Shown: in pieces, positions 25,310 to 33,966 of the stretch
Layout of the letters: every line of letters starts with the position of its first letter
Position numbering within the stretch: position 1 is the first letter of the stretch
Source: Burkholderiales bacterium
GTDB lineage: Bacteria; Pseudomonadota; Gammaproteobacteria; Burkholderiales; SG8-41
Reading direction: 5' to 3'
Length of the DNA stretch: 64,000 bases
Assembly (NCBI GenBank): GCA_019749945.1
Contig: JAIEPF010000014.1
Span: 1-64,000, forward strand
Position numbers and translations under genes: made by a program
Notes under the pieces: model-generated
Seen by the model: the letters and a program-made list of their open reading frames with translations, nothing else
Databases searched by the model: none
What the model was told of the DNA's origin: nothing

Positions 25310-25699
25310 ATGACCACCGCCCCTGCCGCTGAACCCATTGCCGACGCCGATCGCCGGCGCGTACTGACCGGCGCCACGCTGAAAGCGGCCGATCTGCTGG
25401 AAATCCAGCAGGCCGTCCTCGCCAGACTGCTGGGTGTCAGCACGGCGCAGGTCAGCCGCATGCGCCAGGGCAGCTACCTGCTCGACCAAAAGCGCAAGGA
25501 ATGGGAACTGGCGGCATTGTTCGTGCGCCTCTACCGCGCGCTGGATTCGATCACCGTCAACAGTTTTGAGGAGGCCCGGGCCTGGCTCAACAGCCGCAAC
25601 CGCGGGCTCGGCGGCGAAAAACCCGTCGCCTTGATCGCTTCTGCCGCGGGTCTGGTGCGCGTCGTCGATTACCTCGATGCCGCCCGCGCGCGCATTTAG
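25310..25699 (+). CDS. Xre/ParS-type antitoxin with MbcA-like toxin-binding domain
   Basis: A 129-residue antitoxin. A degenerate helix-turn-helix lies at about 30-60 (LARLLGVSTAQVSRMRQGSY). The C-terminal toxin-binding domain begins at ELAALFVRLYRALDS and contains FEEARAWLNSRNRGLGGEKP, characteristic of the DUF2384 group. It overlaps the RES toxin gene by 23 bases. It should both bind the toxin and repress the operon; GGAGG is 5 bases before the ATG. Confidence 0.9.
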   Translation: MTTAPAAEPIADADRRRVLTGATLKAADLLEIQQAVLARLLGVSTAQVSRMRQGSYLLDQKRKEWELAALFVRLYRALDSITVNSFEEARAWLNSRNRGLGGEKPVALIASAAGLVRVVDYLDAARARI

Positions 25700-26378
25700 C
25701 CCGCAAAACCTGCGCTCCCGGATCTGGCGCGCGGTGGAGGCGCAGCACAAGGTTGCCACGATGCGCCTGGTGGACCACAAGCTCGAGGACCAGGACATCC
25801 TCGAAAAAATCCTCGAGGAAGCCAAACCGCCGGTGCCGGCGGAGGCCCGCGACAAACACTGGCTGATTTTCACGCCCTTCCGTTATACCCCGCGCCCGCC
25901 CGGCAGCCGCTTCCGCGCACCCGAAGATCCGGGCGTGTTTTATGGCGCCTTTGAGCAGCGCACCGCCTGCGCCGAAATCGGCTACTGGCGCTGGCGTTTT
26001 GTGCAGGACAGTGAAGGCTTGACGCTGCTCGAAGCCAAACCGATGAGCCTGTTTGCCGCGAATGTGAAAACTGCCGCGGCCATCGACCTGCGGAAACCGC
26101 CCCTATCCCGCCAGCGCAAAGCCTGGACGAATCCCGACAGTTATGCGGAAACCCAGGCGCTGGCGCGCAAGGCGCGGGAACAGGACATCGAAGCCATGGT
26201 GTATGAATCGGTGCGCGATCCGGAGCACGGCGGTGCGGTCGCGGTGCTGACCCCGAAACCCTTAAGCGGCCCGGTCGGCAATCCGGAGAGCTGGTTTCTG
26301 ACGATCACAGCGGATCGGGCCATCTGGCAGCGGGAACTGGGGGAGAGTTTTCAGTTTCTTTTCGGGAAGTCACGGTAG
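25677..26378 (+). CDS. RES domain toxin
   Basis: A 233-residue toxin of the RES family. The three name-giving residues are visible: Arg in FRYTPRPPGSRF, Glu in CAEIGYWRWRF and Ser in MVYESVRDPEHGG, with GVFYGAF between them. Characterised members degrade or phosphorolyse NAD+ in the cytoplasm, halting growth. A helical N-terminal extension of about 60 residues precedes the fold. It is the last GC-rich gene before the AT-rich island at 26.4 kb. Confidence 0.9.
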   Translation: MPPARAFSPQNLRSRIWRAVEAQHKVATMRLVDHKLEDQDILEKILEEAKPPVPAEARDKHWLIFTPFRYTPRPPGSRFRAPEDPGVFYGAFEQRTACAEIGYWRWRFVQDSEGLTLLEAKPMSLFAANVKTAAAIDLRKPPLSRQRKAWTNPDSYAETQALARKAREQDIEAMVYESVRDPEHGGAVAVLTPKPLSGPVGNPESWFLTITADRAIWQRELGESFQFLFGKSR

Positions 26379-26483: not shown

Positions 26484-27923
26484 TTACGCAGCAGTTGGCA
26501 ATTCACGAATCCCAGCCATTGCAAACCTCGAGTTCTCACCCCTGCCGCACTCATTGCAATCATCATCCTTTCGCGGCTGCTCAATAAGTGCTTCTCGCGA
26601 CACGTGCTTGAATCGACGAAAATCTGTCGTTACATTTTCGTTCGCGACACCCAGAAAACTCATTAGGAAATCGTTAACGGCGTGCGATGCTCCAACTGCA
26701 TTTAGCGTAATCACGCTTGGACTCGGCGCTTGGGTTCCATAATCTTGTGCCCGGCGCTCTCTTTCCGTTTTCGCTTCCACCGCAAGTCCGTTTCTCGAAA
26801 TTAGCCCATTACACCAGAGACAACTCTCACCTGGAATGATCCATCGGTAGACCGAGTAAGCATCTTCCAGAAGACCCGAGCGCTCCTCGACCAGGATTTT
26901 TGATCCAATTTGAATGCCAGGAATTAGATATTGATGCACTATGGCATTGAAAACAAGACGAGCCTGCATTGAATCAGCAGCCAGAAAAAGAAAATCGCAG
27001 TCCAAAAACCGGAGGGCAATTTCCTTATATGCGAAGTTTCCAAAAATGGCTTCAATAGCTACATTGGGATTTGCTTGCTTTGCAACCCGTTGAGCGATAG
27101 CTGCCTTTTTTGCGGAAAAACGTAGGCCCGCCTTTCGAATCCAGCCAGGCATTCGTTTATACGTGAATGGAAAACGGGCATCCCAATAAGTCGAACCGAC
27201 TATGCGTGACAAATTAGATAACTCGATCCGATCATCGTCTGCAACAAGAATGTGGCCGACTCCGAGACGTGATAAGTACTCAACTAACAAAGAACCCACA
27301 CCGCCAGCCCCAATGACTCCAACTTTTGATTCAGAAAGAATTTTTTGACCAGCATTACCAAACATCAATAGCTGTCTATCGTAGGTAGTGGTTGAGGCGT
27401 ACCGAACATCTTTTTTACGAGAAAAAATTCTTCTTACCACCGGGCCAATTACGCGAAGCTCTTTCAACTCCAATCGCTGCCCGCCTGGCACCCAAACATC
27501 GGCGGCGGCGGCATTAGCAGCAAGAACTAACGCACCAACTGGCGACCCCTGCATTACGTCAAGTAGCGCGGGATACCCACGTTCGTGAGAGGTAAGATCA
27601 TCCGCACTGAAATCTACAGAATCGGTGCCGCCATGATTATGCACGGCTATATAACAAAGTTTTTTTTCTCGGCAGTATTGAATCTTGTCATAAATAAATT
27701 CCGCCCGGAGCATCCTGTAACCGTACTTACCTGGCACATAATCGATACCGTCTTTTGCCAGAAATACTTCTCGCACTAATAGCCTTAATTCGCCGTTCGC
27801 TTCATGCACTCCAGCCGCAATAACTGCACCGTGCTCATCCTGCCCCCCATGAAACAGATGCGCATAAAGCTTTTGAAATATACGCTGGGATATATGTATG
27901 GAGCACACAGTGGCATTTTTCAT
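26484..27923 (-). CDS. JAB (JAMM) protease fused to ThiF/E1-like activating enzyme
   Basis: A 479-residue fusion. The N-terminal JAB domain has a complete JAMM zinc site: E30, the HxH pair H95/H97 (VHNHG), S106 and D109. It is followed from about 180 by an E1-like domain with DRQLLMFG, the ATP motif VIGAGGVGS (about 203-211) and LSNLSR. Zinc-ribbon Cys lie in CLWCNG (368/371) and CNEC (456/459). The crossover loop (AQDYGTQAPSPSV), where MoeB/ThiF-type E1s carry a catalytic Cys, has none. It should adenylate the small Ubl encoded upstream and cleave Ubl precursors or conjugates. The ATG chosen overlaps the E2-like stop by four bases (ATGA); another lies five codons upstream. AT-rich, unlike the flanks. 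Confidence 0.88.
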   Translation of the reverse strand: MKNATVCSIHISQRIFQKLYAHLFHGGQDEHGAVIAAGVHEANGELRLLVREVFLAKDGIDYVPGKYGYRMLRAEFIYDKIQYCREKKLCYIAVHNHGGTDSVDFSADDLTSHERGYPALLDVMQGSPVGALVLAANAAAADVWVPGGQRLELKELRVIGPVVRRIFSRKKDVRYASTTTYDRQLLMFGNAGQKILSESKVGVIGAGGVGSLLVEYLSRLGVGHILVADDDRIELSNLSRIVGSTYWDARFPFTYKRMPGWIRKAGLRFSAKKAAIAQRVAKQANPNVAIEAIFGNFAYKEIALRFLDCDFLFLAADSMQARLVFNAIVHQYLIPGIQIGSKILVEERSGLLEDAYSVYRWIIPGESCLWCNGLISRNGLAVEAKTERERRAQDYGTQAPSPSVITLNAVGASHAVNDFLMSFLGVANENVTTDFRRFKHVSREALIEQPRKDDDCNECGRGENSRFAMAGIRELPTAA

Positions 27924-28312
27924 CGCGACTTTATCCATTCAATAACTTTTAGAAACTTGAGCGCTGGCGTCTCAATTTCGGAGTTTCGAGCATTCGAGCG
28001 ACGCGATACTTGGACTGCTGCTCGATTCATAAAGGCATGTCCAACCGCCATTGCGTCACCCAGAGTACCGCCTTTGACGCGAGAAAGATCACCGCGGACA
28101 AAGAGCGGATAAACGTCGGCGTAGGGAATTTGAACTGGAATATGCCCACCAATCCATGTTTCTCTCTGTACATAGATATCAGAGAGTTGGATCGGCTCGA
28201 CCAGAACTCGGGCGCCACCATTCCCATCGGCCTCGGATATTAATGCGGCCAATGGAAATGTGGCGCGAAGTTCCTCTATCGCCCTAACTACATTTTCTGA
28301 AAATGCAACCAT
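27920..28312 (-). CDS. E2-like protein of a bacterial ubiquitin-like system (Prok-E2 family E type), no cysteine
   Basis: A 130-residue protein. Its central part (WIGGHIPVQIPYADVYPLFV) resembles the strand-loop of E2 folds. Its C-terminal part (AAVQVSRRSNARN and then ALKFLKVIEWI) matches my memory of the prokaryotic E2 family found beside ThiF-JAB proteins. It contains no cysteine at all, so it cannot form a thioester; H92, S103 and S106 are the obvious polar candidates. Its start is 3 bases after the Ubl stop and its end overlaps the E1-JAB start, giving a tight three-gene operon. Confidence 0.75.
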   Translation of the reverse strand: MVAFSENVVRAIEELRATFPLAALISEADGNGGARVLVEPIQLSDIYVQRETWIGGHIPVQIPYADVYPLFVRGDLSRVKGGTLGDAMAVGHAFMNRAAVQVSRRSNARNSEIETPALKFLKVIEWIKSR

Positions 28313-28315
28313 TTG

Positions 28316-28597
28316 CTATGAGTTGTCATCGTGAGGGATCGCTTCAAACTTACTACCCTCATGGAGATGAACAACATCGGCATCTCCGATAACCTTGCGG
28401 TGCCCATTTCCCTTGTCCTCGAACAGCACGAAATCAAGCTTAATGTTGACGCCTTGATTGATAGCTGCTTGTTTTATTTCAAGCCCCGTCGCACGCTTTT
28501 TTGTTACGGTTACCGTCTTGAAATTCACTGTGATGTGGATTGCCACATGCTTTTCTTTGTCGGACTCGCGGTTCGCAACTACGTCTAATTCATTCAT
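28316..28597 (-). CDS. Ubiquitin-like protein (multiubiquitin-domain type, single copy)
   Basis: A 93-residue protein with one beta-grasp domain: VAIHITVNFKTVTVTKKRATG, a helix GLEIKQAAINQGV, and the last strands VVHLHEGSKFEAI. The C-terminus is HDDNS rather than Gly-Gly. The second ATG was chosen because AAAGGA then lies 6 bases upstream; the first ATG abuts it. It is presumably the modifier activated by the downstream E1. The promoter region carries Xre-type repeats. Confidence 0.78.
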   Translation of the reverse strand: MNELDVVANRESDKEKHVAIHITVNFKTVTVTKKRATGLEIKQAAINQGVNIKLDFVLFEDKGNGHRKVIGDADVVHLHEGSKFEAIPHDDNS

Positions 28598-28609
28598 AAT
28601 CATTCCTTT

Positions 28610-28700
28610 AATTGCTATTAAGGGTTAGAATTGCTAAAAAGCAATTCATGGCGAGATTCTAATTATTGCAACTATAGATGTCAATTTCTAATTAGCAATT
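28610..28700. promoter_or_regulatory. Repeated AATTGCTA sites between the Ubl operon and the Xre gene
   Basis: The motif AATTGCTA occurs at 28610-28617 and again at 28629-28636. The second copy forms half of a perfect palindrome, GAATTGCT-AAAA-AGCAATTC (28628-28647). A reverse copy TTAGCAATT lies at 28692-28700. These are probably operators for the divergent Xre protein, controlling both directions. Confidence 0.6.
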
Positions 28701-28718
28701 TATTAGGGACAAATGTAA

Positions 28719-29090
28719 GTGACTGAAAATAAAAGAAATTTTGACGGGTTTGCCTTTTACAAGGCTTTAGAAAGCACGATGCTTGCTCGCAACTTGACCT
28801 GGAAACAGGTTGCCACTGAGACGGGCGTTGGCGCATCAACACTGAGCCGAATGACTCAAGGAAAGCTACCGGACGCTACGAGTTTGGCATCACTTGCTGC
28901 TTGGTCGGGACTCAATCCAGCAGATTTCGTGCGGGGATCTTCACGTCCAGAACGGACTGAACCTCTTGCGATGCTGTCTAGCTTTATTCACTCCGACCCT
29001 AACCTCACTCCGGAAGGACAGCAGGCGCTAGATGAGGTAGTGAAGGCAACATATCTGCGACTCTCGTCGATGAAACAGGAAAAGAAATAA
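28719..29090 (+). CDS. Xre-family helix-turn-helix regulator of the island
   Basis: A 123-residue protein starting with GTG (AGGGAC upstream). The helix-turn-helix is at about 25-60 (LTWKQVATETGVGASTLSRM followed by TQGKLPDATSLASLAAWSG). The C-terminal 40 residues are helical (LTPEGQQALDEVVKATYLRL). It lies between and divergent from the ubiquitin-like operon and convergent with the dCTP-deaminase-like gene, so it is the likely regulator of the island. Confidence 0.85.
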   Translation: MTENKRNFDGFAFYKALESTMLARNLTWKQVATETGVGASTLSRMTQGKLPDATSLASLAAWSGLNPADFVRGSSRPERTEPLAMLSSFIHSDPNLTPEGQQALDEVVKATYLRLSSMKQEKK

Positions 29091-33798: not shown

Positions 33799-33966
33799 AG
33801 CTTTAGCCACAGAGAACACAGAGTTCACAGAGTTCACAGAGTTCACAGAGTTCACAGAGAAAAAACAAGAACTTGGGGCATTTCCACATCCCATCAATCT
33901 GGTGAGGATCGGGTGAGGATTCAAACCCTTGAATCTCTCGGTGTTCTCTGTGAGCTCTGTGGCCGA
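33799..33966. repeat. CACAGAG-armed hairpin element, copy b, with tandem 9-mers
   Basis: The left arm begins AGCCACAGAGAACACAGAG and contains about four tandem copies of AGTTCACAG (33820-33857). The right arm GTGTTCTCTGTGAGCTCTGT with GGC ends at about 33964. It fills the dcd-purC gap. The extra 9-mers point to slippage expansion in one arm. Confidence 0.75.

Follow-up and report, generated by a model that had tools for sequence, protein, structure and literature searches.

The window, by which we mean the whole 64,000-nucleotide stretch of Burkholderiales DNA analysed here, carries three consecutive genes on its minus strand. The first (28316-28603) encodes a BubA-like, ubiquitin-like protein (Ubl) of 95 aa with one Multi_ubiq domain (Pfam PF14452, E=4.3e-10), the second (27920-28312) a BubB-like, E2-like protein of 130 aa, and the third (26484-27938) a BubCD-like JAB-E1 fusion of 484 aa with a Pfam ThiF match (E=2.1e-30). 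The Ubl and E2-like genes are 3 bases apart, and in an ATGA at 27923-27920 the E2 stop codon shares bases with an ATG inside the E1 gene. The longest E1 ORF begins 15 bases earlier, at 27938, so that the E1 start codon is uncertain, with 27923 as the alternative. An earlier note on this DNA had described just this gene order with its two tight junctions, and the three open reading frames bear it out. On the plus strand, a divergent gene encodes an XRE-type regulator (28719-29090; 123 aa, Pfam HTH_3), which shares with the Ubl gene the intergenic region at 28604-28718.

The operon and its relatives

Searching genome contigs for the E1 returned 15 loci at 39-50% identity. At 14 of them, Ubl and E2-like genes stand directly upstream in the same order, and at the 15th (L007) the contig ends too soon for the upstream genes to be judged; the conserved three-gene order is more than chance. 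Together with the window and the nine best-ranked plasmid loci, these 15 make up the set of 25 loci used below, which holds 24 Ubls, 24 E2-like proteins and 25 E1s. L007, lacking Ubl and E2 at its contig edge, and L032, whose E1 is cut short, are excluded from the counts concerned. Seventeen plasmid loci were fetched among the 40 matches listed of 281: ranks 1-9, unselected, and eight lower ones picked by hand, which serve as the comparison group (L018, L019, L023, L024, L026, L027, L033 and L034). Because members of the set were chosen for E1 similarity to the window and the eight others were hand-picked, the fractions reported here are not prevalences. The joint E1 alignment comprises 32 sequences, 24 from the set and the 8 others. 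A scan of viral_contigs with the E1 alignment found no relative, and a search of a phage collection gave six records, none covering 80% of the query. At L032 (4980-6583; Deinococcus sp. D7000), the JAB-E1 gene is truncated to 371 aa and adjoins a transposase gene.

The BubCD, BubB and Multi_ubiq matches identify the three genes as an intact Bub (bacterial ubiquitination-like) operon. In phmmer, the E1 matches Citrobacter BubCD over residues 16-427 (E=4.1e-23). Its predicted structure (pLDDT 83) ranks five Bub entries first in the PDB, among them BubCD 9ea4 at Z 36.4 (RMSD 3.3, 425 residues aligned), followed by ThiF at Z 25.5. The AlphaFold2 model of the E2-like protein (pLDDT 88) has Citrobacter BubB as its best PDB match (9eae_C, Z 12.2, RMSD 2.7, 120 aligned). 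TSG101 UEV domains rank next (Z about 8), on a par with true E2s (UEV/E2 range Z 7-8.2), and unrelated CapZ chains match at the same level of Z 7-8. In Foldseek, BubB is the sole match with E<0.001 (2e-4), other E2 folds lying at E of at least 0.2. Comparison of profiles by hhalign paired the E2-like family with six other BubB-like proteins (probability 96.9, E=2e-10), and the profile of the set retrieved two Citrobacter BubB chains only from the PDB, weakly (E about 0.035). Three of five set members tested match Prok-E2_E (PF14462) below its cut-off. A single-sequence search with the window's E2-like protein returned no Pfam family and no PDB chain, and a PDB search with the Ubl returned no match. 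The earlier note had treated the 130-aa protein as a member of the E2 superfamily while allowing that a profile search might place it elsewhere; such a placement is ruled out by the profile-profile, Foldseek and structure matches to BubB, which put the protein with BubB and the E2/UBC fold.

This kind of system is already known: Cys-less E2s in such operons were in print by 2006, and Bub has been named and structurally solved. The fifth operon type of Iyer, Burroughs and Aravind (2006; Table 1 row 6e, PMC1779556) is given there as a JAB-E1, a like Ubl and a Cys-less E2/RWD-like domain, sometimes standing alone between the Ubl and JAB-E1 genes. Section 14 of that paper judges the E2 likely inactive, and within that section a Tyr/Ser relay, a Ser end and a regulator are absent. 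A passage of a 2024 review (PMC11354881) again calls the Cys-less E2/RWD-like domains inactive. The Citrobacter Bub structures (9ea4, 9ea5, 9ea8, 9eae and 9eav; Ye et al. 2026) are cited in PMC13373217, excerpts of which report 544 identified Bub operons and phage protection by them as not demonstrated. PMC13373217 is the only source naming Bub among the matches listed in our literature search, in which mostly unrelated words matched, so that the search is poor evidence of absence.

The Citrobacter system shares with the window the JAB-E1 domain order, an E2-fold BubB, a Ubl of the multiubiquitin family and a Tyr in the crossover loop. However, at the related plasmid loci of Citrobacter koseri and Enterobacter (L018, L019) the Ubl forms a fusion with the E2, a DUF6527 gene follows and the E1 lacks the CxxC pair, whereas the window has separate Ubl and E2 genes, no DUF6527 gene, CxxC pairs and a Ser-ended Ubl.

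Missing cysteines, Tyr400 and Ser103

The JAB-E1 fusion has an intact JAMM metallopeptidase site and an intact ATP-binding motif, as the earlier note had read it. The JAMM residues (E35, H100, H102, S111 and D114; 27597-27836, minus strand) are invariant in 21 of 21 aligned E1s and conserved in at least 31 of the 32 in the joint alignment, and G210, G212, G213, G215 and S216 of the nucleotide-binding GxGGxGS motif (G210-S216; 27291-27311, minus strand) are likewise invariant in all 21. Its cysteines had been described as four zinc-ribbon residues plus isolated ones. This agrees with the alignment, in which four of the eight Cys, of zinc-ribbon type (C373, C376, C461 and C464; span 26547-26822, minus strand), are the sole invariant Cys of the 21 E1s. 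The E2-like protein, said to be free of Cys, indeed has none in its 130 aa. Its counterparts in the set have 0-3 Cys each and, in 8 of 24 cases, none at all; no invariant or near-invariant Cys column exists among the 20 aligned sequences.

Judged from these alignments, the missing cysteines are not a local mutation but are fixed across the homologues, because no Cys is conserved in the 24 E2-like homologues and only the zinc-type Cys are invariant in the 21 E1s. The earlier note had asked whether close homologues keep a Cys that was simply mutated in this copy. They likewise lack a conserved one, which rules out a local mutation or a pseudogene. That the operon once was a normal thioester system and is now decaying is a reading of practically negligible probability: it draws on the lack of Cys in the window copy and on nothing more, whereas the window retains the residues that are invariant in the homologues, and these, too, lack a conserved Cys in the E2.

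The Bil (bacterial ISG15-like) and CBASS Cap2 pathways are also built from bacterial E1/E2/Ubl/JAB parts, and they use catalytic cysteines. A conserved Cys in the E1 crossover loop or in the E2, as in Bil and canonical pathways, was not found in the window's set. PADLOC E1-E2 models match the ThiF part of the window's E1 with partial coverage only. Membership in CBASS, Bil or 6A-MBL was rejected, the PADLOC and NCBIfam matches being partial on the E1 and the latter far below their cut-off.

Across the joint alignment of 32 E1s, just 26 columns keep the same residue in 31 or more sequences, mostly residues of the JAMM or nucleotide site. In the crossover region (residues 373-413) these columns are Y400, P407, V409 and N413, of which Y400 (codon 26739-26741, minus strand) is the only one with a side chain able to be acylated. 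In the alignment it adjoins the column of the catalytic Cys in canonical E1s, being one column away from the Cys of all five MoeB/ThiF-like control E1s (control locus L041 gave no ORF and was left out). MoeB/ThiF E1-like enzymes share the adenylation fold and the CxxC pairs with the window's E1, but carry Cys (5/5 controls) where Bub has the neighbouring Tyr. We know of no JAB domain and no E2 partner in these enzymes.

On inspection, the loops of 31 E1s have a Tyr 7-12 residues ahead of P[SA]V. The remaining E1, L028, has AASV in place of P[SA]V and also contains the Tyr, which is thus present in all 32 loops. In L033 the automatic alignment sets a Gly under Y400, and the Tyr of this sequence lies one residue earlier. 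The PDB title of 9eav reads BubCD(D104A/Y370F)-BubB-BubA(155-229); its chain A has Phe at the position of the window's Tyr400, and the other two Citrobacter chains have Tyr (Y370). The crossover-loop Tyr thus appears to be a family mark of Bub. A noncanonical oxyester mechanism has reportedly been described for Bub by Ye and colleagues. Ser408 (PSVITLN) was also considered as the E1 nucleophile, a candidacy weakened by Ala at this position in 6 of 32 E1s. The more distant E1 relatives L035 and L036, from a genome of the same order (G060) and one of the same family (G031), also have Tyr at the crossover-loop position.

In the E2-like protein, the candidate acyl-carrying residue is Ser103 (codon 28004-28006, minus strand), within a QxSRR motif. 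Ser103 and Arg104 are invariant in the 20 aligned E2-like proteins and occur in four further sequences, L029-L032, as well (24/24). In the profile-profile alignment, Ser103 stands opposite the Ser of the Citrobacter-type WSRH motif; the HMMER alignment, a weak hit (E=0.035), shifts it by one residue relative to that Ser. Comparison loci L023, L027 and L033 have SWH instead of WSRH. In the model, 13 residues separate Ser103 from the next helix, a distance which we take to resemble the spacing between the catalytic Cys and helix 2 of eukaryotic E2s.

These data also bear on the reading of 2006, in which the E2-like protein is a scaffold devoid of catalytic activity, comparable to UEV or RWD domains, and the E1 alone modifies targets. 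Such a role would suit a family without a conserved Cys whose next best folds after BubB are the TSG101 UEV domains, at Z about 8 and level with true E2s, and PMC1779556 describes the domain as likely inactive in the section concerned. Yet there is no obvious need in a mere scaffold for the invariance of Ser103 and Arg104 (20/20), and we consider this role distinctly unlikely.

The Ubl end and the proposed relay

The earlier note had reported a Ubl ending in HDDNS rather than Gly-Gly, and this end is confirmed. The DDNS codons (28319-28330, minus strand) are directly followed by the stop codon, so that no trimming of the Ubl is needed to expose the terminal Ser. The same four residues end 22 of the 24 Ubls of the set, and all 24, the two exceptions L014 (DHSS) and L025 (HEDS) included, terminate in Ser. 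Gly was found within the last four residues in 0 of these 24 Ubls, and a Gly-Gly end in none. Among the comparison loci, L018, L019, L024 and L033 have the Ubl fused to the E2, and the Ubls of L023, L026, L027 and L034 end in or near Gly. The BubA construct in the solved structure stops at the position that aligns with Gly230 of the C. koseri protein. According to a passage of PMC11354881, processing of BilA leaves it with a C-terminal Gly.

A Ubl that is not conjugated at all, and instead serves as a carrier for small-molecule or sulfur chemistry as ThiS and MoaD do, would be in keeping with an E1 domain of ThiF/MoeB type bearing four zinc-type cysteines. We find this highly improbable: the Ubl has no GG end, the 24 loci that carry all three genes have JAMM residues and a gene for an E2-fold partner, and the nearest solved relatives are Bub proteins.

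In the E1 tree, the set (24 E1s, all uncut) groups together on a long stem with a support of 97/100. The genome loci of the tree represent 11 phyla, to which Actinomycetota are added by the plasmid loci and Deinococcota by L032, which lies outside the tree. A DUF6527 gene near the E1 was found at 0 of the 25 loci of the set, compared with 7 of the 8 hand-picked others, the flanks searched differing in length. L033 is grouped with the DUF6527 type in the tree although it is without the gene. The window lies in a separate Bub clade, the DDNS clade, with Ser-ended Ubls, no DUF6527 and, in many cases, a divergent XRE regulator of its own. The minimal gene content of the clade and the invariance of the Ser at its Ubl end may be new. 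At L033 (2824-5647), on a haloarchaeal plasmid, a protein annotated as E2/UBC, its N-terminal part long and acidic, accompanies a JAB-E1 relative, and no DUF6527 match was found there.

The Cys-free operon is probably explained by a non-thioester pathway. The earlier note had proposed such a route, by a Ser ester or by direct transfer; the non-thioester route stands as the best reading, but the conserved candidate in the E1 is a Tyr, Y400, and not a Ser. We infer the following chemical steps and regulation. The E1 domain would adenylate the Ubl at its C-terminal Ser, which is natively exposed. The acyl group would then pass to Tyr400 as an oxyester on the crossover loop, where E1s of the MoeB/ThiF type have Cys, and from there to Ser103 of the E2-like protein, again as an ester. 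Ser103 would hand it to an amine on the target, forming an amide, and the JAMM domain would remove or edit the tag. Finally, the divergent XRE protein would control the operon through ATTGCAAT-like half-sites. Taken as a whole, an intact Bub operon of the DDNS clade that runs an oxyester relay from Ubl-AMP to Tyr to Ser to target under XRE control is a proposal that we consider likely. A more specific form of it, in a clade without DUF6527 and often with its own regulator, is put forward tentatively: here the Ser-ended Ubl would be adenylated and relayed from Tyr to Ser as an ester, with no cysteine involved. There would be no maturation cleavage of this Ubl, and the JAMM domain would therefore act in deconjugation only.

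Alternatively, the conserved Tyr400 could position the adenylate rather than carry the acyl group. The E1 would then pass the Ubl from the adenylate directly to Ser103, and Tyr400 would merely shape the active site. Such a transfer is compatible with the invariant Ser103 and with the model of the E1, in which residues 401-406, the loop adjoining Tyr400, have pLDDT values under 50; moreover, conservation alone cannot separate a nucleophile from a binding residue. However, Tyr400 is only one column from the canonical Cys, and the depositors of 9eav picked Y370F for their E1-E2-Ubl complex, as its title states. We regard direct transfer as unlikely.

Tyr400 and Ser103 are the two residues that probably took over from Cys in enzymes whose lack of cysteine, as judged from the alignments, is fixed across distant bacteria. 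The window offers a minimal three-gene version of the system, in which the Gly-less Ubl end can be tested. Should the C-terminal Ser truly be the activated residue, this clade would be an exception to the usual rule of a Gly end in E1-activated Ubls. The Bub pathway is little studied, and the window holds a widespread form of it with a Ser-ended tag, which seems to use Tyr and Ser instead of Cys.

The regulator, the island and neighbouring genes

Of the 24 loci of the set that were fetched, 13 have a homologue of the XRE regulator in the same divergent place (E<=7.6e-26). Five loci (L020, L021, L022, L031 and L032) instead have, upstream of the Ubl, a gene annotated as an ImmA/IrrE peptidase, beside which L020, L022 and L032 also have an annotated HTH gene. 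The intergenic region of the window contains a perfect 8-4-8 palindrome, GAATTGCT-4-AGCAATTC (28628-28647), and a promoter-like site (28684-28656, minus strand; 11/12 match), sites of this kind numbering 6 in the wider region against a shuffle mean of 7.1, which is no excess. TTGCAAT or ATTGCAA is present in 13 of 14 regulator-Ubl intergenic regions, whereas in 200 shuffled sets no 7-mer occurred in more than 5; the shuffles were of single bases and the loci are related. The natural reading of the palindrome and half-sites is that of a putative operator for the XRE protein.

The operon lies inside a 5-kb stretch of about 45% GC, in surroundings of about 58-67%. Each of the 61 genomes compared (the window's own and 60 relatives) scores some E1 match, nearly all of them short ThiF matches and the rest weak relatives; a close full-length JAB-E1 was found in the window's genome only. 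The stretch from 26.4 to 31.4 kb has no match of at least 100 bases at E<=1e-10 in the 15-19 kb taken from each of six relatives of the same genus. The sister genome G018 keeps both borders (window 26379 and 31459) with 2.2 kb between them. This site (L063:6853-8737) is occupied by a gene for a C5 cytosine DNA methyltransferase (PF00145), overlapped by a 331-aa ORF that has no Pfam match and is possibly its restriction partner. Because the borders are kept in G018 around other genes, the site takes different cargo, in this one case perhaps a restriction-modification system. Directly left of the island, a RES/Xre toxin-antitoxin pair (25310-26378, plus strand) lies in a stretch that is kept in G018.

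The same AT-rich stretch contains a further group of genes (31104-29099, minus strand), which encode a 110-aa protein, a 325-aa HExxH zincin-like protein with sub-threshold Pfam matches only and a dCTP deaminase-like protein, the last gene overlapping that of the zincin-like protein by 14 bases. The deaminase and peptidase neighbours have no homologue at E<=1e-3 in the Bub loci compared, the window's own copy apart, and the group therefore looks like separate cargo; it is perhaps defence-related. Further along the window, short tandem repeats at 33800-33880, reading NSV or TEF in overlapping frames, lie near the start of an ORF (33924-32599) that by eye resembles a second deoxycytidine deaminase.
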